Shown here piece by piece: positions 11,084 to 63,187 of a stretch of 64,000 nt of DNA. Numbering within the stretch: the first letter of the stretch is position 1; the number at the start of each line of letters is the position of its first letter. The DNA is from Bacillota bacterium (GTDB taxonomy: Bacteria; Bacillota; SHA-98; UBA4971). The position numbers and the translations under genes were made by a program. Where the stretch lies: positions 124,001 through 188,000 of the forward strand of contig DUSX01000009.1 of NCBI GenBank assembly GCA_012842395.1, in the 5' to 3' direction. The notes below the pieces were generated by a model that made no database searches, was not told the origin of the DNA, and was given only the letters and a program-made list of their open reading frames with translations.

Positions 11084-13033
11084 ATGGCGACGACCGTGGG
11101 GAGGACGCGAAACAGCCCCGAGGTGCAGTTCACTCTGCCCATGAGGGCTCTCAAGATCAAGAATATCCGTGCTGACGTGACGAACGTCAGCGTTGAGATA
11201 ATACCTGACAAAGTGATCGTTCAGGGAACCATCGCCAAGCAAGTCTTCTTCGTTGCTGAGGACGATATCGTTCACCACTTCCCCGAGGAAATGCGCTTCT
11301 CCGCGCTGGTCGAGGTGCCGGGCGCGCGTCCCGGGATGCTCGCGCAGGTCCATCCGAGCATTTTCAACGTCATTGCCTTCCTCAGCCCCGACGGAAACCA
11401 GATTCTCCAGAAGGTCATCGTTGACGTGGACGTGGTGGTTACCGACTTCGTTCAGCTCCGTGTGGCCGAGGACCCCTACGGCACGCCGGTCATCACCGAG
11501 GCCGTGGTGGGAGAGGCTACCGGGCAAGTGCTGGAGACGGGGACGGTGACCTTGGCCGTGCCCGCCACCAAAGTAACGGAGATCCGCGCAACTCCCGAGA
11601 TCACCGGTGTGACCGTGAACCCCGGTGAGGTGATTGTGAACGGGAACATCCTCAAGCAGTTGTTCTTTGTGGGCACGGACGGGGTCGATCGCCACCAGGG
11701 AGTGGCGGCGCCTTTCTCGGTGACCGTAGCGATCCCCGGGGCCCAGCCGGGGATGAACGTGCAGGTACACCCGATGGTGAGGGACGTGGCTTTCTCGCTG
11801 GAGCCGCAAGGCATGCTTGTGGCGCAGGAAGTGGTCCTCGATGTGTTCGTGAAGGTCACCGAGACTACCGAGCTAGTCCTCGCGCTGGGTGAGGGACCCC
11901 TCATCAAGACCGAGCGGGTGCTCGGCCAGGGGTTCACGGAGCTCATGGAGGAGGCCACGGTCACGCTGGCGCAGCCCGCAGCGAGCCTCGTGGGGATAAC
12001 GGCGCGGTTCGAGAGCGTGCGCGCGCGTGCCATCGAGAACAAGGTCATCCTACAGGGGACCATCGTCAAGGATGTAACCTATGTGACGGCCGCGGGCACG
12101 CAGGCTACGGAGACGTTCACCATCCCCTTCAGCGATTTCGCGGACGTGCCCGGCTCGAGGCCCGGCCTGAATGTGTTCGTGAGGCCCGAGGTGCGGGCGG
12201 TGTTGTTCGATCCGACGCAGACAGGCACGAACATCTCGGAGAAAATCGTGGCGGACATCTTCGTGACGGTCACCGAGACGGCGCAGATCCCGGTGGCTAT
12301 AGAGCCGTATGGGCCGCAAGTCAAGGTGCAGCAAGTCATAGGCGAGGGGACAGCTCAGGTCCTCGCCGAGAAGGTGATCGCGCGGGTCCTCCCGATCAGC
12401 ATCGAGTTCGCCAGGATCTTGATATCAGAAGGCGTGGAGGTTTCGAGGCAGGCCCTTCTCGAGACGACGGTCGCCGCGCCCGTGTCGGCGGTCAAGATAC
12501 GGGCTGTCGACGCCGCCGCGGAGGGTGTGACGTCGCGCATCCTTGGGGACAAAGTCCTCGTCGAGGGCGTGGTGACAAAGCAGATATTCTTCGTTGGCAC
12601 GGACCAGATCGTTCACCACGTCCAAGACACGCTGCCTTTCAGCGTGCTCGTGGAGTTTCCCGGGCTTGCGCCTGGCGCGAGCGTCACGGCGTCGGTGCGC
12701 GTCGAGAACGTGATCGTCAAGGTCGTGCAGGGCGGCGCGGCCTTTCATCAGCTCGTGATACTGCTGGTCACGGTGGGCACCTCTACTCAGCAGGTCCACC
12801 AGGTCGTGACGAACGTGACCGGGCCCGGGGTCGTGGTGACGAAGGGAAGATTCCTCGTGGACGTCATCGAGGATAGCACGGTTGTGCGGCGTCCGCTCGA
12901 CATAGTCACCGACCTCACCGGTCCGCGAGTCGCAACAGTCACACGTGAGACGCTGCCCCTCATCAGGATCGTGGACGGCACGGTGGGCCCGGAGCCGGTG
13001 TCGGTGGTTACGGGGGCGACGTTCAGCTCGTGA
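11084..13033 (+). CDS. SPOCS (DUF3794) repeat protein, about four domains
   Basis: A 649-residue protein built from about four tandem SPOCS/DUF3794 domains, roughly residues 20-160, 165-300, 305-440 and 450-600. Each has the core block where a VIVQGTI-K-Q-FFV strand is followed by VHH, then an EVPGARPGM turn and an alternating VDVDVVV strand. SPOCS domains occur in spore coat-base proteins such as Clostridioides difficile SipL, where a separate LysM tail binds SpoIVA. Here there is no LysM, signal peptide or membrane segment. The ATG at 11084 follows AGGGGAGGGCAGG; the frame is open a little further upstream without family similarity. It is first of a cluster of six. A spore-envelope structural role is inferred from the family. 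Confidence 0.83.
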   Translation: MATTVGRTRNSPEVQFTLPMRALKIKNIRADVTNVSVEIIPDKVIVQGTIAKQVFFVAEDDIVHHFPEEMRFSALVEVPGARPGMLAQVHPSIFNVIAFLSPDGNQILQKVIVDVDVVVTDFVQLRVAEDPYGTPVITEAVVGEATGQVLETGTVTLAVPATKVTEIRATPEITGVTVNPGEVIVNGNILKQLFFVGTDGVDRHQGVAAPFSVTVAIPGAQPGMNVQVHPMVRDVAFSLEPQGMLVAQEVVLDVFVKVTETTELVLALGEGPLIKTERVLGQGFTELMEEATVTLAQPAASLVGITARFESVRARAIENKVILQGTIVKDVTYVTAAGTQATETFTIPFSDFADVPGSRPGLNVFVRPEVRAVLFDPTQTGTNISEKIVADIFVTVTETAQIPVAIEPYGPQVKVQQVIGEGTAQVLAEKVIARVLPISIEFARILISEGVEVSRQALLETTVAAPVSAVKIRAVDAAAEGVTSRILGDKVLVEGVVTKQIFFVGTDQIVHHVQDTLPFSVLVEFPGLAPGASVTASVRVENVIVKVVQGGAAFHQLVILLVTVGTSTQQVHQVVTNVTGPGVVVTKGRFLVDVIEDSTVVRRPLDIVTDLTGPRVATVTRETLPLIRIVDGTVGPEPVSVVTGATFSS

Positions 13034-14019
13034 TTCATCACACTTGCGCGGGGACCTCAATACGATATATGGAGAAATGCAGCGAAAGGGGACCGGCCGT
13101 GGCGCTTGGTGCAGCCTGGCAACTAGTTATCATCCTGTCGATCGCGCTCGCCGTGCTGGAGGTCGCGGTCGAGTTCTCGCGCCGCAGGCGGGCTCGCCGC
13201 GCGGCGCCCGCGGCATGCCCGGCTTCGTTTGTCCTCGCTGCCTCGTCACGGTTCGATCCCGGGCTCGTCCACGGCGGGGGCGCGGGCGAGCAGCCGAGAT
13301 CGAGTGCATCCCCCGCAGACTCGGGCGTCCACAAGGTGCGCTCCACACGGAGCGGCGAAGGAAGCCCGCCATCGCGGAGAACCGCAGATCCGCATCACGC
13401 GCTTCGCGATACCACAGGGCCCGCCGGGCCTGGATGTGCCGGAAACGCGGAGCCTCGTCCAGAGAATCCCTCAAATACCCCGCCCGTTCGAACGGGCAGA
13501 AACCTTTTCCTCGCTGCTAGCGTGTCATGGAAAAGCGACAGAGCGGCGGATCCGCCGGCGGCGGCAGCACGCCAGCCGGAGGAGGAGCTTGCGCGCGCGC
13601 CGGAGTCCACGTGCAGCCCCGGCGTTGCCGCGCCCGTGGCTGAAGCGTCCGCAGTTACCGCGACGCCGGCCGCTACGGCGGCGACGCCGGCTGATTCCGC
13701 GGCGCGCGCGGCCGCGGCACCGCCTGATGCCGGCGCGTTTGCGTGCGCGAACGAGGGGCCCGGTGCCGCGCCTGCGGTCTCACCCGAGGCACCGCCTGCG
13801 CCGGAGGCACCGCCTGCGCCAGGGACGCGCCTGGAGCGAGCCGAGGCGTCTCATGCACATAGCAACGTTCGCGTGGATGAACGAGCCCGGAGGCACGGAG
13901 GCCCGTCCGATCCATATAGACGACTGCCTAAAGAAAGGGGGGACTGGAGGAAGGCTGGGCCCGCCTTCCTCAGGTCTTCAAGAGAAAGCTCCACGAGGAG
14001 CTTGAAAGGAGGCTCACAG
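13034..14019 (+). other. open stretch of about 990 bases: possible membrane-anchored extension or small membrane protein
   Basis: This gap lies in the same frame as the following SPOCS gene with no stop codon between. Translation from ATG 13069 or GTG 13099 (after AAAGGGGA) gives a strongly hydrophobic stretch, LGAAWQLVIILSIALAVLEV, then an Arg-rich stop-transfer segment, then about 270 residues rich in Ala, Pro, Ser and Arg. Codon third positions are GC-rich at first and less so in the middle. It could be a real N-terminal anchor and linker for the SPOCS protein or a separate small protein. It could also be a chance open frame, which is common at this GC content. Against fusion: a full ribosome site at 14005-14012 and a sigma-K-like motif at 13895-13921 lie inside it. 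Confidence 0.3.
13895..13921 (+). promoter_or_regulatory. sigma-K-like promoter ahead of the three-domain SPOCS gene
   Basis: AC at 13895-13896 is followed after exactly 16 bases by CATATAGAC at 13913-13921. The CATA half of the sigma-K -10 is exact and the trailing TA is not. It lies about 100 bases ahead of the ATG at 14020. Confidence 0.35.
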
Positions 14020-15336
14020 ATGATTGACATAACGCAGATCGTGGACCAGAAAGCAACGATCAAGGTGGAGAGGGTCATTGGCCACGGCACGAAGGAGGTG
14101 CTGCTGGAGGAGACGAAGACCGTGCCGGCCATCAAGATAGTTGAGATCGTTCCTGTTCTCACCAACGTCCGGTCCATCGTGAAGAACGGGAAGGTCATCG
14201 TTCAGGGCACCGTTCATAAGCAGATCTTTTACATCGGCACGGATAACCTCGAGCACCATCTCGCAGAGGACATCGATTTCAGCGAGCTCGTCGACGTGGT
14301 GCCGCTCGACCCGGCGCGTCCGGTGACTGAGGGCATGAACCAGCGCGACATGTCCGTCATCGAGAACAACGTGTTCGAGTTCGACCCGGCGACCGGCACT
14401 CTTACCCAGAAGATCGTGCTCAGGCTCCAGGTGAAGGTGACGGACACAGAGCAACTCGCGGTTGCGTTGTCGCCCTACGGCACCTTCATCAAGGCTGCCG
14501 TGGTCGTAGGGGAGGCGACCAAGCAGAAGTTCATCGAAGAGACGAAGACATTGCCTGCCACCAAGGTGATCGAGATCATCCCGCGCATTTCCAATATAAA
14601 GCACATAGTCAAGAACGGTAAGGTCATAGTGCAGGGCACGCTTCACAAGCAGATATTCTACGTGGGCACCGATGACCTCGTTCACCACATCGCCGAGGAC
14701 ATAGGGTTCAGCGACCTAGTCGAGGTGCCACCGTTGAACCCTAACTTCCCGGTGCAGGAGGGCATGGACTCGCAGGACCACTCCGTCGTCGACAACCTCG
14801 TATTCGAGTTCGACCCGGCGACAGGGACTCTGACGCAGAAGATAATACTCCTCCTGGGCGTGAAGGTCACCGAGACGGAGCAGATACCGGTTGCCGTCGA
14901 CCCGTACGGCACGGTGATTGCGGCTGACCTCGTGGTAGGGCATGGCACGAAGCAGAAGCTCATCGAGGAGACGAAGACCTTGGCAGCCACGAAGATCGTA
15001 GACGTGGAGGCCAGGATCAGCGAGATCAGCTCGATCGTGAAGAACGGCAAGGTGATAGTGCAGGGGATCGTGCACAAGCAGATCTTCTACGTTGGCACCG
15101 ACGACCTCGTCCATCACCTCGCGGAGGACCTGCCCTTCAGCGAGATGGTGGAGGTCACGCCGATAAACCCGGAGGTGCCCGTGCGCGAGGGCATGGATGA
15201 GCAGGATCACTCGTTCATCGAGAACATCGTCTGGGAATTCGACCCGGCGACAGGCAGCTTCACAGAGAAGATCGTGATCCGGATAGACGTGAAGGTTACC
15301 CAATTCGGGCAGATCGGAGTGGTCATCGACCCGTAA
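14020..15336 (+). CDS. SPOCS (DUF3794) protein with three near-identical repeats
   Basis: A 438-residue protein made of three tandem SPOCS domains of about 140 residues that are unusually similar to one another. Each carries VVGHGTK or GEATKQK, then EETKT-LPATKV, then IVKNGKVIVQGT-HKQIFYVGTD, then VHH-AEDI-FS, then a FEFDPATGTLTQKI strand. Such similarity suggests recent internal duplication or gene conversion, unlike the diverged repeats of the other SPOCS proteins here. The ATG at 14020 is strongly supported by AAAGGAGG at 14005-14012, although the frame stays open for 330 codons upstream. There is no LysM. Inferred role: spore coat or envelope structural protein. Confidence 0.85.
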   Translation: MIDITQIVDQKATIKVERVIGHGTKEVLLEETKTVPAIKIVEIVPVLTNVRSIVKNGKVIVQGTVHKQIFYIGTDNLEHHLAEDIDFSELVDVVPLDPARPVTEGMNQRDMSVIENNVFEFDPATGTLTQKIVLRLQVKVTDTEQLAVALSPYGTFIKAAVVVGEATKQKFIEETKTLPATKVIEIIPRISNIKHIVKNGKVIVQGTLHKQIFYVGTDDLVHHIAEDIGFSDLVEVPPLNPNFPVQEGMDSQDHSVVDNLVFEFDPATGTLTQKIILLLGVKVTETEQIPVAVDPYGTVIAADLVVGHGTKQKLIEETKTLAATKIVDVEARISEISSIVKNGKVIVQGIVHKQIFYVGTDDLVHHLAEDLPFSEMVEVTPINPEVPVREGMDEQDHSFIENIVWEFDPATGSFTEKIVIRIDVKVTQFGQIGVVIDP

Positions 15337-24795: not shown

Positions 24796-24952
24796 GGGTT
24801 GCCGGTGTTGCCTTCAAGGGGCGGCGCGCTTGCGGCGCGCCTCGTTCGAATTCGGCGCGGGGGCACGCCGAATGCTCGACGCCCCGTCGTGCAAGCACCG
24901 GCAACCCTAGTACCATCAAGGAGAGTGGCGAAGACTTGCGGCGCCATGCCTT
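24796..24952 (+). repeat. interspersed repeat family A, copy 1 (5' part missing)
   Basis: The 112-bp palindromic core 24796-24907 is bounded by GGGTTGCCGGTGTTGC and GCAAGCACCGGCAACCC (imperfect inverted repeats). Inside are a GGCGCGC-TTGCG-GCGCGCC hairpin and an AATTCGGC / GCCGAAT pair. The 3' flank to about 24952 matches copies 2 and 3. The 5' outer flank present in those copies is absent, the SPOCS gene ending just upstream. Confidence 0.8.
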
Positions 24953-25005
24953 GGCGAGGGTGCGTTAGTCCTCGCCGCTCTTCCAGTAGTAGCCCAGTAG
25001 CTGCC

Positions 25006-25163
25006 GGGTTGCCGGTATTGCACTCGGGGACGGCGCCCCAAGCGGGGCGTGGGGCGTAGGGCGTGGGGCGCAGGGCGCAGGGCGCGGCGCGCGCTTCGGC
25101 CAAATGCGGCCCGCCTGGCCAGCGGCCGGGTTTTGACACCCCTTGTGCAATCACTGGCAACCC
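25006..25163 (+). repeat. interspersed repeat family B, copy 1, with internal heptamer expansion
   Basis: Bounded by GGGTTGCCGGTATTGC and GCAATCACTGGCAACCC, the same terminal inverted repeats as family A but with a different interior (GGACGGCGCCCCAAGCGGGGC, then GGCC-rich arms and TTTTGACACCCC). The 5' flank GTGCGTTAGTCC...CTTCCAGTAGT is shared with copy 2. It lies only 54 bases beyond family A copy 1. Confidence 0.8.
25044..25092 (+). repeat. seven tandem G-rich heptamers
   Basis: GGGGCGT, GGGGCGT, AGGGCGT, GGGGCGC, AGGGCGC, AGGGCGC and a diverged GGCGCGC lie head to tail inside family B copy 1. The other two B copies lack them, so this is a local expansion. Confidence 0.8.
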
Positions 25164-25517
25164 TTGTCATTGAGCAGAGGCATTATGGCGCCTGCACTCA
25201 GGGGCGCGCGCGTACCGAGAGATGACGTGGTAAAGAGGCAACGAGAGGCAACGGGCAATCGCCGGGGTCATTCGACCGTCCCGTAGCTCGCGACCATTGT
25301 GCTGTCCCGCTAAGAAGGTGTTTGTAGTGCGGAAACGCGCCCAGACCCAGAGAAGAGACGGCAACTCGTCGCAAAGGTCGCTGCACCTCTGCACCTCTGT
25401 ACCTCTGCACCTCCCCGGCAGCTGCCAACCGCAGCGGCTTGGCGGCGGCGTTAGCGCGGAACACCGCTGCGGCATATCATATCCTGGTAAAGTTGCTAGT
25501 AGGAGGGAGGGAACAAG
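25164..25517 (+). other. gap before the last SPOCS gene, with an octamer tandem repeat
   Basis: No gene seen. Four tandem octamers CTGCACCT (third copy CTGTACCT) lie at 25381-25412. CATATCATA at 25473-25481 fits a sigma-K -10 but has no AC at the right distance. Confidence 0.55.
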
Positions 25518-28119: not shown

Positions 28120-28290
28120 GTATAACGCGGACGGAAGGCGAGCTACCGTCGCAACACGGCCGGGCCGCAACGCGGCCAGGCGGCGATGGAAACATGGCCG
28201 GGCGGCATCCATCCGAACGAAGGACCTACGAACGAAGGGCCTACGAAGGGCTTAAGTGGGGGCGCAGGAGAGCGTTGAACTCTCCCCACG
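28120..28290 (+). other. gap before the repeat block
   Basis: No gene seen. Short direct repeats such as GAAGGACCTACGAACGAAGG with GAAGGGCCTACGAAGGGC lie at about 28217-28253, leading into the family C and B elements. Confidence 0.35.
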
Positions 28291-28380
28291 TTATGTCGCC
28301 TCGGCCCAGTTGAAGCCCACGAAGCCGTCGCCGGGGCCGCGCAGATTGGCAGTTACTGGGGAAGTTCAACAGTCTCGTGC
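28291..28380 (+). repeat. interspersed repeat family C, copy 1 (partial)
   Basis: Matches the copy at 62432-62565 through CCCAGTTGAAG, AAGCCGTCG, GGGGCCGCGC, TTGGCAGT and GGGGAAGT ending in GTCTCGTGCG. The left arm is shortened. An inverted copy of its right end (AAACTGTTGAACTTCC) lies at 28563-28578, beyond family B copy 3. The B element may therefore sit within a palindromic C remnant. Confidence 0.7.
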
Positions 28381-28412
28381 GGAAATCCTTCCGACTTTCC
28401 GACTATTGGGAG

Positions 28413-28562
28413 GGGCTGCCAGCGGTTGCACGATGGGTGTGAGACTCCGTCTACTGGCCTCACAGGTCGGGTTTTGGCGGAGCGAGGCCCGCTCGAGGCG
28501 CCGTCCCCGAGTGCGATACCGGCCACCAGGCAACTACTGGAAGTGGGGCAACGACTGACGCA
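28413..28562 (-). repeat. interspersed repeat family B, copy 3 (inverted)
   Basis: The reverse complement aligns with copies 1 and 2: CTTCCAGTAGTTGCC flank, GCCGGTATCGCACTCGGGGA, GGCGCCTCGAGCGGGCC, then the far end GCAACCGCTGGCAGCCC. It is the most diverged of the three and the only one in reverse orientation. Confidence 0.7.
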
Positions 28563-28822
28563 TGAAACTGTTGAACTTCCTGAGTACCTACCAGTTCGGC
28601 CGGGCACGCCGACCGTCTTGCGCGACTCAGGTGAGCCGTGTTGCTGTAGTGTGGGAAACATCAACAGCGTCACGCATCCTCACTTGAACTTAGAGGAAGA
28701 ACAGGGAGCGGAAGGAGCGGCGAACTGACGGCAGCGGGATGGGACAGGGGGCAACGCACCGAACGCACCAGCAGGCAGGGAGCCTGCCACCCGCCGTGCC
28801 GTGAGGTCGCGCGGCAAAGGAC

Positions 28823-36849: not shown

Positions 36850-37060
36850 CTAAGTATGTCACCAGAAGTTCGCGCTACTTTTCGGCGGAGGGGTCCTGCC
36901 TATGGCTATCGGTGTTGACCTCCGGGGACGGCGCGCTTGCGGCGCGCCTCGTTCGAATTCGGCGCGTGAGATGGCCGAATTCTCCACGCCCCCTCGTGCA
37001 AGCACCGGCAACCCTGACGCCGCCAAGAAAGAGGACGAAGACTTATGGCGCCATACTTAG
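36850..37060 (+). repeat. interspersed repeat family A, copy 2 (complete, MITE-like)
   Basis: A 211-bp element with outer terminal inverted repeats CTAAGTATGTCACCAGAAG (36850-36868) and CTTATGGCGCCATACTTAG (37042-37060), pairing at 16 of 19 positions. A second, inner inverted repeat pair bounds 36904-37014, with the GGCGCGC hairpin and GAATTCGGC / GGCCGAATTC arms inside. It encodes no protein. It ends 30 bases before the nucleoside phosphorylase start. Confidence 0.85.
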
Positions 37061-46878: not shown

Positions 46879-49410
46879 ATGAAAGCGGTGGTCATGGCGG
46901 GTGGAGAGGGAACCAGGCTGCGTCCGCTTACGTGCAACCGTCCGAAACCGATGGTGCCCGTGGCCAACAAGCCCATCATACAGCACATCTTCGAGCTCCT
47001 GAAGCGCCACGGCATCACGGACATCGCCGTCACGCTCTATTATCTTGCCGACGAGATCGAGAGCTTCTTCAGCGACGGGGCCGAGCTCGGGCTGCACCTC
47101 TCCTATTCGGTGGAGGATGTGCCCCTCGGGACCGCCGGCAGCGTAAAGAAGGCTGCCGAGGTATTCGGCAGGGAACGAGTGCTCGTCATAAGCGGTGACG
47201 CGCTCACCGACATCGACCTTCGGGAAGCGGTGAGGTTTCACGAGGAGAAATCGGCTGTCGCTACCATAGTCACCACGAGGGTCGACAACCCCCTCGAGTA
47301 CGGCATCGTGGTCACCGATGACGAAGGTAGAATCCGCAGGTTCCTGGAGAAGCCGAGCTGGGGGGAGGTGTTCAGCGACACGGTCAATACCGGGATATAC
47401 ATCCTCGAGCCCGAGGTGCTCGACTACATCGACCCGGGGAGGCCCGTCGATTTCAGCCAGGACGTTTTCCCCGCGCTTCTCCGCGACGGGAAAGGGCTAT
47501 ACGCGTACGTGGCATCCGGGTACTGGTGCGATGTCGGCAACATCCAGCAGTACAGGCAGGCCCAGGTGGACGCCGTGATGGGTAAAGTGAAGGTGGAGAT
47601 CCCGGGCAACAAGATGGGCGCCGACATCTGGGTTGGCGAGGGCACGGAGATCGCTCCTGACGCCCGCCTCTCCGGCCCGCTCGTCATAGGCCGGAACTGC
47701 CTGATAGGCCCCGGCGCCGGCTGTTTTGAGTACACCTTCATGGGTGACAACTGCATAATCGAGAGGGATGCGGTCATCCAGCGAAGCATCCTATGGCCCG
47801 ACACCTTCGTGGGCCAGGGCGCCGAGGTGCGGGGCGCCATAGTCGGGCAGCACGCGATCGTCAAGGACTTCGTCACGTGCCATGAGGGCGTGGTCGTAGG
47901 CGACAGGTGCAGGATCGAGCAAGGCGCCATGCTCCAGCCCCAGATCAAGGTCTGGCCGAACAAGATCATCGAGCCGGGGTCGCGTGTCACCATGAGCCTC
48001 ATTTGGGGCACGAAGTGGCCGGGCTCCATCTTCAAAGACAGGGGCGTCACGGGCCTCACAAACATCGAGCTCACGCCCGAGTTCGCGATGAAGCTCGGGG
48101 CGTCGTTCGGCAGCTCCATCGGCAAGGGGGCGACCGTCACGACGAGCCGCGACGACCATCCGGCGTCCAGGATGATCCTCAGGTCCATCATCTGCGGCCT
48201 CATGACGGTGGGCGTGAACATCTTCGACCTCCGGTCCACACCCCTTCCCGTGAGCCGCTACAACATAAAGCCCCTCGGGGTGGACGGCGGGGTGCACATC
48301 CGGGTATCTCCGGACAATCCCAAGCTCACCCTAATCGAGCTCTTCGGCAGGCAGGGCATCAACTTGCCCAGGGCTCACGAACGCAAGATCGAGAACATCT
48401 TCTTCCGCGAGGACTTCCGCCGCACCGACGCGGACGAGGTAGGTAAGCTGGAGTTCCCCGGACGGGTGCTCGAGCCTTACACGGAGGCTTTCTTCAACTA
48501 CGTGGACGAGCGTATCATCGCGGAGTCGCGCATTAGCGTGGTTGTGGACTACGCTTACAGCAGGCTGTCGATGTTCCTCCCGAGCATCTTCGGGAGGCTG
48601 GGATGCGAGATGGTCGCCCTGAACGCGTACCCCGACCACTCGCGCGCCCCGAAGACCCGTGAAGACCGAGAGGCCCATCTCAAAAAGCTGTCGGAGACCG
48701 TGAGCACGCTCAAGGCCGACGTCGGGGTGCTGGTGGAAAGCGACGGCGAGCGCCTGGCGCTCGTGGACGAAACGGGCAGGGTGGTGGAAGGCAACACGCT
48801 CCTTGCGGCCATGGTTTGGTTGGCGACGCGCGATGCGGCCGGGACGGCGGGCGGCGCGACCGGGGACGGTGTTCTCATCGCGGCGACCGTGGGCGCCACG
48901 AGCGCCGTGGACCGGATCGCGGCACAGCATGGCGCGAGAATAGTACGGACTAGGGAGGACGCCCGGTCTCTGATGGAGTTCGCCTCCAGGGCGGGCCAGG
49001 ACGTGCTCTTTGCCGGCGATACCGAAGGCGGATTCATCTTCCCCAGATTCCAGCCGGCGTTCGACGCCATGTTCTCGCTGGCAAAGGTCTTCGAGTTCCT
49101 CGCGCGCCAGGGCGTCAGGTTGTCTTGCGTTGTGGATAACCTGGCGATTCCGCCCATGGTGACCGGTTCGGTGGCCTGCCCATGGGAGTATAAGGGCCGG
49201 GTCATGCGAGTGCTGGCCGAAGAGACGGGAGATATGCGACGCGAATTCATCGACGGCCTGCGCCTCTTCTTTGATGATGGCTGGGTGCTCGTCTTGCCAG
49301 ACCCGTCGGAGCCTTTGATCCACATTTACTCCGAGGCCGCCGCCGCGGAGAGCGCTGCCGGCAGGGCGAAGGAGTATGCTGACAGGGTCGCGGCCATCAT
49401 CGGAATCTAG
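46879..49410 (+). CDS. nucleotidyltransferase / left-handed beta-helix / phosphomannomutase-like fusion
   Basis: An 843-residue three-part protein. Residues 1-230 are an NTP_transferase ([72 protein letters not shown]). About 250-370 is a hexapeptide beta-helix. About 375-840 is phosphoglucomutase/phosphomannomutase-like. In the last part the usual phosphoserine motif TASHNP reads RVSPDNP and the metal-binding D-x-D-x-D-R loop reads ESDGER, so mutase activity is doubtful. Fusions of this type act as mannose-1-phosphate guanylyltransferases or regulators. It continues the glucan gene order. Confidence 0.85.
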
Positions 49411-49414
49411 GTGA

Positions 49415-49567
49415 GGGTGCGTTAGTCCTTGCGCCTCTTCCAGTAGTTGCCGGGCTGCCGGTGTTGCACCCGGGGACGGCGCCCCAAGCGGGGCGCGCTT
49501 CGCCAAAATCCGGCCCGTCCGGCCAGTGGCCGGATTTTGACACCCCTCGTGCAATCACCGGCAACCC
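49415..49567 (+). repeat. interspersed repeat family B, copy 2
   Basis: Flank GTGCGTTAGTCCTTGCG...CTTCCAGTAGTTGCC leads into the core 49452-49567, bounded by GGGCTGCCGGTGTTGC and GCAATCACCGGCAACCC. Inside, GGCGCCCC-AAGC-GGGGCGC is a hairpin, and AAAATCCGGCC / GGCCGGATTTT forms long arms. It is the shortest copy and the best model for the family. The remaining gap to 49728 shows nothing further. Confidence 0.82.
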
Positions 49568-49728
49568 CTCCCAAAGGTCGGGAGCGTTTCTGCACCCCCA
49601 CTCAGGCGGATCGTAGGCAATTTGTGCCGCTCCTCGGCGGGTGAGTTCCTCGCACGGATGCCTGCTGTCCTCAAATGGACGCCCACCCCCTGGCCCCGGG
49701 CCTTGATGATTGTCGGCTGCGCGGGCGG

Positions 49729-57528: not shown

Positions 57529-57736
57529 CTAAGTATGTCGCCAAAAGTTCGCGCTACTTTTCGGCAGGGCAGTCCTGCCCAGGGTTGCCGGTGTTGCCCT
57601 CCGGGGACGGCGCGCTTGCGGCGCGCCTCGTTCGAATTCGGCGCGCAAGCCTGCCGAATTCTCCACGCCCCGTCGTGCAAGCACCGGCAACCCTAACGCC
57701 GTCAAGAAAGGGGACGAAGACTTATGGCGCCGTACT
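57529..57736 (+). repeat. interspersed repeat family A, copy 3
   Basis: Begins CTAAGTATGTCGCCAAAAG like copy 2. The core 57582-57693 is bounded by GGGTTGCCGGTGTTGC and GCAAGCACCGGCAACCC. The 3' flank GACGAAGACTTATGGCGCC also matches. The outer 3' inverted repeat has decayed after GCGCCGTACT. Flanking gap 57396-57528 shows no gene. Confidence 0.83.
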
Positions 57737-58284
57737 CGTGCTAAGGGAGGCAGTCAGGCGTCGCGCGGGGCGTCCAGGTGAATGCTGAAGAGAGGGCGTC
57801 GAGTTCGGGGTATGCTCGGCTGGAGGCCTTCGGAGCACTCTGCGGTTCCATGAGAATCGGGGGCATCGAGGTCGAGGAAGAGGGGTCGCGCCGCGGACCC
57901 CTCCAGATCACATCAATCACATCACAGCGACTCACAGCGACATGGGTTATGACATCGGTGATGCACGATTTACTGCTATCCGCCTCCGCAACAGACAAGG
58001 AATCGTGCAAATCCTCGCGCAGGAGTGGCTCGCGCACGTGGCCCACGGCCGACCTGTCGCAAGCGCGACCGGCGGGCCCGAGGGGGGCAGAGAGCACGAA
58101 CGCTCGAGGCCTCTGGGGATGCCGGTGGCCTGGATAGAACCCACGTCACAGGCACCCCCGATTTATCGAAAAGAGGACACTAACCGGCGCTTCGCCTCGT
58201 TAAGCCAGCGTGCGCTCGTCAAGAGGCGAGTCCACACGCAGGGGAGCGGATCATGCACGACGGGTGGGCGCTGGAACCGGCGCC
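57737..58284 (+). other. gene-free gap
   Basis: No gene I can support. Several frames are open but show no family features or convincing ribosome sites. Near 57908-57940 short repeats of ATCACATCA and CAGCGACTCA-type sequence occur. Confidence 0.35.
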
Positions 58285-61571: not shown

Positions 61572-62009
61572 ATGGTAGTGATCACGAGCAAGGTTGAGTA
61601 CCTCCTTCTGATACTAGTCGACCTCGCAACGAACAGAGCGTCAGGATACACACTTTCCCGGGATGTGGCGGAAAGACAAGGCATCCCGCCCAAATACATG
61701 CCCCAGCTCATGGCGCTCCTTACCAAAAGGGGATGGGCAGCCTCCGCGCGGGGTGCAGGGGGAGGGGTCAGACTGATTGCGGACCCAAGAGACATCACCA
61801 TTAAAGACGTGATCGAGACTGCGGGTGAGAGGTTCCAGATCAAGCCGTGCGTGGACGAGCGCTACCCGTGCCCTAGGAGAGAGCGATGCCCGCTCTGGCC
61901 GGTATGGGTGAACGCTCAGAGACAGGTCGACAGGGTGATGGAGAGCACGACGCTTGCAGCGCTGATTGAAAGCAGAGGAAACAGTGACAGTGAAGGAGGG
62001 TCACAATGA
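61572..62009 (+). CDS. Rrf2-family transcriptional regulator with Fe-S-type cysteines
   Basis: A 145-residue Rrf2 regulator. The winged helix is TSKVEYLLLILVDLATNRASGYTLSRDVAERQGIPPKYMPQLMALLTKRGWAASARGAGGGVRLIADPRDITIKDVIET, with the conserved G-x-x-GG-x-x-L-like wing. Three Cys in C-x7-C-x5-C (CVDERYPC and RRERC) match the cluster-binding region of IscR/RsrR/NsrR-type members. It probably senses oxygen, nitric oxide or iron-sulfur status. GTG 61578 is another start. It overlaps the broken gene downstream by four bases and sits next to the rubrerythrin cluster, so those genes are likely targets. Confidence 0.88.
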   Translation: MVVITSKVEYLLLILVDLATNRASGYTLSRDVAERQGIPPKYMPQLMALLTKRGWAASARGAGGGVRLIADPRDITIKDVIETAGERFQIKPCVDERYPCPRRERCPLWPVWVNAQRQVDRVMESTTLAALIESRGNSDSEGGSQ

Positions 62010-62431: not shown

Positions 62432-62565
62432 CTAAGTATGTCGCCACGAGACCGCTGGTTTGTGCCGGAATATGCCATCTTAGCCCAGTTGAAGGCCGAA
62501 GCCCGCAAAGCCGTCGATGGGGCCGCGCGGGTTGGCAGTCACCGGGGAAGTCCAGTGGTCTCGTG
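62432..62565 (+). repeat. interspersed repeat family C, copy 2 (MITE-like)
   Basis: Begins CTAAGTATGTCGCCA (shared with the outer end of family A). It then has inverted repeats CACGAGACCGCTGG (62445-62458) and CCAGTGGTCTCGTG (62552-62565), paired at 13 of 14 positions. The interior (CCCAGTTGAAG, AAGCCGTCGATGGGGCCGCGC, TTGGCAGTCACCGGGG) matches copy 1 at 28291-28380. Confidence 0.8.
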
Positions 62566-62566
62566 C

Positions 62567-62914
62567 GTCATGTGTGGAACGGGTAAGGTGGAGAGGATGA
62601 CGGACGGCAACGGTCCTCCTGGACGGGTGACGTGGGGAATTGATGCGGACGGGGCTTGTGATGTGCATCACCGGACGCACCGCAGCCATGCCGTGCAGAA
62701 TGGTTCGGGAGAGGTCCGTGATGTGCGTCACGCGACGGCACACAAGACTTGATGTGAGGAACTGCTCGGGACGGACGCGTGATCTGCACCACGCGTCCGT
62801 CCTCGACAACTGACGCACGGCACGTATCGCAGAGGGTTCTTGACCTGAGTCACGGATCGAACTGCAGGGATGACGCACACCACACATGAACCATGAACGC
62901 GTGACTTACGGAAC
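62567..62914 (+). repeat. periodic 14-nt core array, 12 units, period about 30 bp
   Basis: Cores fitting NTGAYGYGCRNMAC start at 62567, 62597, 62627, 62658, 62687, 62718, 62749, 62779, 62810, 62840, 62870 and 62901; steps are 30, 30, 31, 29, 31, 31, 30, 31, 30, 30, 31. The best are GTGATGTGCATCAC, GTGATGTGCGTCAC, TTGATGTGAGGAAC, ATGACGCACACCAC and GTGACTTACGGAAC; the fifth unit is weak. The 15-17 base spacers differ from unit to unit. The array starts two bases after repeat C and ends about 270 bases ahead of glpK. Confidence 0.8.
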
Positions 62915-63187
62915 TCTTCACGAAGGACCCGCTGGTGTTGGAAGGAAGTGCGAACGCCGTTGTCGAACACCACGCGTCAGGACAATACCGCGCTGACGCC
63001 TGAGAGGGTTTCGGCGCTCCCGGCGCGGCTGCGTGCTTTTGGAATTCGAGAAACGTCTGAGATCCCGGGCGGCCGGGGCCGACCTCCAAACGGAGCCGAC
63101 CTGCGGGCCCGGTAGCACGAACTCTTGACGACGTACTCAGAAGACGATGCCGCCCTAGACCACGTTCACGTTGAGGAGGGCCGACAG
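62915..63187 (+). other. glpK upstream region
   Basis: No gene. GGCCGGGGCC and GGGCCCG short palindromes occur at 63070-63115. I could not identify a clear promoter or an antiterminator-type stem ahead of glpK. Confidence 0.3.

Follow-up and report, generated by a model that had tools for sequence, protein, structure and literature searches.

RUP of Streptococcus pneumoniae is mobilised by IS630-Spn1 and was reported to land in IS elements too, as far as the accessible part of the source describes it (PMC2229807). IS630 elements duplicate a TA dinucleotide on insertion, and a preference for CTAG is named in a cited title (PMC2170065). Among known systems, the repeats found in the 64-kb stretch of a Bacillota genome analysed here (the window) appear by analogy to be most like RUP, with exchangeable ends placed around a branched core. 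Like RUP, as portrayed in that part of its description, they are short non-autonomous repeats of about a hundred copies with TA at their termini and ends resembling an IS630-type element. Unlike RUP, they combine a single conserved branched core with four or more types of end, the family extends across a bacterial class, and the search of the genome carrying them gave no cognate transposase. The TA duplication and CTAG preference given for ISY100, an IS630/Tc1-mariner element (PMC2170065, title and accessible text), would fit the CTAAGT...ACTTAG junctions of the present repeats; in contrast to ISY100, these carry no transposase themselves. A DDE_3 element with CTAAGT ends is present in the class. 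Predicted branched or hairpin folds have also been described for the MITE-like CIR of Caulobacter and QMITE2 of Coxiella (accessible parts of PMC2229807 and PMC10969869). The MITE-like repeats analysed here resemble them by description only, in that a branched fold is predicted for them as well, whereas neither CIR nor QMITE2 is presented in those parts as a core with exchangeable ends.

Architecture, copies and spread of the elements

The first-pass annotation of the window recognised two repeat families, A and B, and took them to share terminal inverted repeats but to differ in their centres and outer flanks. The sharing is real, as the arms GGGTTGCCGGTG...CACCGGCAACCC are common to the A and B copies in the window. 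Their terminal position did not survive alignment. In 30 A copies from the source genome, conservation continues on both sides for 40-55 bp outside the arms to CTAAGT...ACTTAG; the B copies show the same outward run with a different inner-adjacent sequence (CTAAGTGAGGGTGCRTTA...), and the DNA beyond CTAAGT...ACTTAG varies freely between copies. The arms are therefore internal, enclosing a palindromic core of ~112-120 bp, and the flanks quoted as lying outside B are part of the element. A full copy consists of CTAAGT, a type-specific end of 40-55 bp, the core, a second type-specific end and ACTTAG. The supposedly different centres, core1 (A) and core2 (B), align over their full length and give the same fold. 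Two further end types were recognised in relatives, C (CTAAGTGTGGGTTCAGA...) and D (CTAAGTAGATCGCCATAAGTAATCGCC...); the CTAAGT termini are common to all types, and the A-, B-, C- or D-specific sequence begins just inside them. The core is sometimes shrunk to ~45 bp, and the arms are kept in such copies. Being short, devoid of a transposase gene, bounded by inverted termini and present in many copies, the elements have the general build of MITEs.

Both types are present in the window where they had been placed, with A cores from ~24796, 36903 and 57582 and three B copies (Table 1). The right terminus (CTTGG) of the first A copy runs into the left terminus of the adjoining B element, which has a GC-rich expansion around 25050-25095. 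The inverted B copy at 28413 was also correctly located, but it is not a plain copy, since its ends hold two extra units of a second element, E. The high density of copies claimed earlier was not borne out: six copies were counted against 2.8 per 64 kb expected from 139 arm matches in 3.138 Mb, which is about twice the genome average with a Poisson tail of ~0.07. Several palindromic TGATSTGCRTCACG-like motifs lie at ~62590-62900 inside the coreless A-type pair, near which a gene for an Rrf2-family regulator is located (61572-62009). Three 429-bp tandem units were observed at 14080-15333 within a 768-aa ORF (13030-15336), and short motifs related to them are scattered from 787 to 24758.

Table 1. 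Elements of the A/B family and E units located in the window
Feature	Coordinates	Strand	Remarks
A-type	24796..24954	+	core1 and right end; no recognisable left end
B-type	24950..25202	+	core2 between the arms, 25006-25163
B-type with E insertion in each end	28252..28687	-	termini TTAAGT (28252) and ACTTGA (28687)
E unit 1	28268..28376	+	10 nt to terminal hexamer; flanking 6-mers GCGCAG/GTGCGG
core2 of E-split B element	28412..28529	-	
E unit 2	28564..28671	-	also 10 nt to its terminal hexamer; perfect 6-bp duplication (ATGCGT)
A-type, complete	36850..37060	+	CTAAGTATGTCACCA ... TGGCGCCATACTTAG
B-type, complete	49407..49605	+	core2
A-type, complete	57529..57739	+	core1 at 57582-57693
A-type termini without core	62432..63140	+	709 bp apart; E unit and ~560 bp of other sequence
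E-like unit	62448..62562	+	10 nt to the 62432 terminal hexamer

A search of the source genome (3.138 Mb, 61 contigs) for the shared arm, as the first-pass annotation had proposed, gave 139 matches against 0 for the reversed control, far beyond chance, and the A and B ends gave 131 against 5 and 36 against 1, respectively. Among the matches listed in a scan of named genomes, the arm occurs mostly in the Bacillota MAGs Yes71-24, MAG-64, AS02xzSISU_21 and UBA6811; no recognisable element surrounds the single arm matches in unrelated Muiribacteriota, Spirochaetales, Rheinheimera and Clostridia bins among the 80 stretches listed. A covariance model of core1 matches 14 of 17 genomes of the class that were searched, including at least 129 times in the source genome, at least 150 times in G001 and 96 times in G013, with no match in G006 or in either genome of family f3. 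In two other genera, the full A query aligns mostly over the core (about 58-169). None of six cores examined in genus g2 has the CTAAGT hexamer on both sides within 80 nt, indicating that the core is not bound to CTAAGT ends everywhere. The genus g2 cores at L076, L078 and L080-L083 have flanks lacking CTAAGT ends on both sides. A literature search, covering mostly freely readable papers, found no description of this repeat family.

Termini, transposase and target site

A and B are probably two end types of one superfamily of non-autonomous MITEs of the IS630/Tc1-mariner type. The non-autonomous nature suggested earlier is supported by the many copies across the genus, the shared CTAAGT termini, an IS630 relative with such termini and the nesting of copies. 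This relative (L236) comes from G015, a genome of another family of the same class, where an ORF matching HTH_29 (E 7e-16) precedes one matching DDE_3 (E 7e-32); CTAAGT ends enclose the pair at a spacing of 1143 bp, and 13 of their 16 terminal bases are inverted-repeated. Two more DDE_3 loci in G015 (L239, L240) have a CTAAGT end downstream. Past the hexamer, the left end of L236 resembles left ends of MITEs in the related genome G013, for which shuffles as good numbered 0 (L079), 0 (L263) and 13 (L250) per 1000; against the end types, the figures were 2 (C), 8 (A) and 16 (B) per 1000. The right end gave no clear match to the G013 right ends (22, 49 and 305 shuffles as good per 1000). As to the autonomous element that had been proposed as a search target, a CTAAGT-ended IS630 element exists in the class, whereas the source genome holds no intact IS630 transposase, only one degenerate PF13358 piece with a stop, although an intact copy could be missing from an assembly in 61 contigs. 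Among five relatives of the same genus, IS630 transposase searches gave no match in three and weak or broken matches only in the other two. The same degenerate IS630-type piece was seen at L085 and L237 (G000:C51 and G004:C16), beside CTAAGCATCTTCACC. Mobilisation of both families by the same enzyme is too strong a statement, given that the sequence just inside CTAAGT differs among A, B, C and D, so that related but distinct transposases are more likely. The link of the MITEs to a transposase is circumstantial.

An IS630-type transposase would bind the ends, cut the element out and paste it at the TA inside CTAG; insertion would duplicate the TA, and the C and G beside it would belong to the target, giving junctions of the form C/TA...TA/G. 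No duplication of 2-13 nt was found outside CTAAGT in 26 A copies, 4 of the 30 fetched having been excluded because an end was not found at ≤4 mismatches. This is expected if the TA lies within CTAAGT, and it leaves the TA duplication itself unproven. Among the nested copies, five have both flanks placed, and two of these fit a 4-nt gap in the host: at L160_6701 the host keeps 4 nt (CGAG) where the insert leaves C/TA...TA/G, and at L160_2125 the gap is 5 or 4 nt. The other three do not, the values being -4 (L057), -7 (L112) and mostly -11 (L137), at lower identity. Most intergenic stretches are too diverged between species for empty sites to be compared; of two that were, one is compatible with a kept CTAG and one is uninformative. 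G005:C10, where part of the region is 97.7% identical, was rejected as an empty site, since its copy carries a deletion. About 7.5 kb at L208 (G000:C2:48217-55760) are 96-98% identical to G005:C10, with no such match in the neighbouring DNA fetched; a recent transfer or a binning error may account for this. Overall, a TA target duplication is only partly supported. It is unlikely that the whole of CTAAGT belongs to the element and that an enzyme other than IS630 inserts it without duplication. The lack of duplication in the 26 copies and the well-conserved first and last bases of the terminus agree with such a mode, but an IS630 element bears the same termini and the clearest nested copy leaves a 4-nt gap.

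The first-pass annotation had also raised REP-type elements handled by one recombinase, which would here be REP/BIME-like repeats moved by a REP-associated tyrosine (Y1) transposase. Many palindromic repeats are indeed present. REP elements are short hairpins, however, whereas the elements described here have long inverted termini, and PF01797 has no match in the source genome and occurs in one of seven genomes searched as against 5 of 14 control genomes, which makes this origin highly improbable. The sole Y1 transposase match in the seven genomes (L360, G002:C107) scores 130 bits and lies in an open frame of 694 aa.

The branched core and exchange at the arms

For core1 and core2 alike, the predicted fold is a stable three-way junction in which a closing stem carries two hairpins. 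In 29 core1-type sequences (alignment A2), 12 of 41 pairs are changed on both sides; both-side-changed cells number 39 against 11.2 in shuffles, and none of 500 shuffles equals the paired percentage, the both-side cells or the covariation score. For core2 (17 sequences, alignment A3), 7 of 40 pairs are changed on both sides, with 8 such cells against 1.8 (0/500 shuffles). Both alignments hold representatives, with false matches and reverse-oriented duplicates removed, and their counts lean towards the structures against which they were made, which were based on the folds of L031 and L195; kinship among sequences can outdo such shuffles without any structure, though slid controls are nevertheless far lower. 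The RNAalifold structure of a mixed alignment (A1) was discarded as poor, with core1 and core2 hairpins misaligned, and the alignments were then split. The arms also change in a compensatory manner in genus g2.

Within these stems, G-U and A-C mismatches are equally common, 107 against 120 in 88 distinct cores (set A4, 99 matches drawn from 80 chosen loci), 33 against 36 in A2 when a consensus U-G pair with 26 UG cells is left out, and 12 against 14 in A3. The pairing is thus not guarded for one RNA strand, which favours a DNA-level cause of the conserved fold, although the test is weakened if most copies decay neutrally after insertion. At the DNA level, the fold would be kept because palindromic copies are amplified more readily or serve as their own repair template. 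The same counts bear on the idea that the core is a structured RNA or a processed regulatory hairpin, whose function explains the conservation while the ends merely spread it. The three-way junction common to both cores with its compensatory changes, the stable predicted folds and the presence of the core in another genus, where it is not flanked by CTAAGT ends on both sides, all speak for it. A one-strand RNA should tolerate G-U over A-C, so that the lack of strand bias opposes it; moreover, the core occurs in either orientation relative to the B ends, and Rfam has 0 matches in the window. Such an RNA is a little less likely still than insertion without duplication. That copies might be part of RNA genes, named at the outset as grounds for dropping the MITE interpretation, finds no Rfam match in the window, while the core does have a conserved fold.

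A smaller share of the copies combines ends and cores that have been exchanged at the arms. Most of 127 distinct elements, sorted roughly by nearest reference end, have matching ends, the combinations being core1 with A ends (34) or C ends (7) and core2 with B ends (33) or D ends (16). Type C was also assigned, for lack of a reference for their ends, to four copies at loci that include L077, L079 and L263 (G015, G013). In eight of the 127 the two ends differ in type, core1 is found in two B-ended copies, and a core1 or core2 is inverted relative to the ends in four copies (two B, one A, one D); for copies with short cores, left and right labels are meaningless. The exchange probably reflects ordinary recombination, slippage or deletion between copies that share arms, and inverted cores would arise when a copy recombines across its own two arms. 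Alternatively, the arms would be the sites of a specialised recombinase by which cores are exchanged or flipped in the manner of cassettes. The switch of type across core and arms in mixed copies, the inverted cores, the persistence of arms in short-core copies and their compensatory changes in genus g2 fit such sites. Yet mixed copies are few (8/127), at least one of them (L025) is accounted for by an A copy nested in B followed by a deletion between arms, in this putative order, and ordinary recombination between repeats is enough, so that dedicated sites seem improbable, more so than a structured RNA. A candidate cargo element (L061), with A-type ends 1153 bp apart flanking a gene that we take to be lipoate-ligase-like, was ruled out: MAG-64 (L100) has this gene pair too but lacks the left insert, indicating two separate end remnants around a resident operon.

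A second MITE inside the ends

E is a unit of ~108 bp with the ends GAGACTGTTGA / TCAACAGTCTC and a 6-bp duplication. Its end was searched in four genomes without reference to the A/B-type MITEs, the flanks of the 86 matches were read, and 37 distinct copies were tallied that have both E ends, the body motif and flanks not already seen. CTAAGT/ACTTAG stands exactly 10 nt from the E edge in 19 of the 37 with ≤1 mismatch and in 28 with ≤2, while the 30 other offsets from 0 to 30 yield 0-3 hexamer matches each (10 altogether, mean 0.3). In the remaining 9/37, the hexamer is absent at 10 nt even with two mismatches. A looser tally gave 54 copies, 40 of them with ≤2 mismatches at the fixed distance. 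The 6-bp duplication (≤1 mismatch) was found in 18/37 copies, and a core arm lies within 75 nt in 16/37, the other hosts being decayed, different or a bare hexamer. CTAAGT-type ends on both sides were seen in 3 of 43 copies of a wider set that includes loci selected by MITEs. One E copy lies at the 10-nt distance inside a CTAAGT end next to the IS630 gene of L240.

In element coordinates, the hexamer occupies bases 1-6 and the duplication bases 11-16, which means that E cut after base 10 of the host end. The duplicated bases vary by host (GTGCAG, ATGCAG, CTGAAC, CGCCAT, TTGGCG, GTAGAC). E is probably a parasite of A/B-type elements, its insertions lying after base 10 of the host end with bases 11-16 duplicated. 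Tentatively, it might home on any CTAAGT-type end (A, B, C or that of an IS630 element itself) by position and not by sequence, a possibility that we regard as less likely than not. In that case, the cue for the E transposase would be either the terminal hexamer, read from a set distance, or the IS630-type transposase occupying the end. The fixed-distance insertion is the most surprising result of this analysis, lies outside the original claim and is the one most worth following.

IS231 targets the ends of Tn4430, and both it and IS4321/IS5075 are autonomous elements of other families than E. IS4321/IS5075 in the ends of Tn21-family transposons are named in a title cited in PMC11187229, and the association of IS231 with Tn4430 in one cited in PMC6542083. 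To the extent that these titles tell, E would resemble them as a mobile element targeting the terminal inverted repeats of other transposons. It differs in being a MITE, of ~108 bp, that has inverted termini and duplicates 6 bp, and whose insertions lie a set distance from the terminus in targets that vary in sequence. In the literature searched, mostly freely readable papers, no MITE at a fixed distance inside the ends of another element was found.

A series of MITEs whose ends and core evolve and recombine separately allows the question of which part drives amplification to be asked. With the E insertions, events in which one transposon targets the ends of another at a fixed distance can be counted, which would make end recognition and transposon-on-transposon parasitism testable. 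If E does home on these ends, it would damage those of its hosts and hence hold the MITE family in check.
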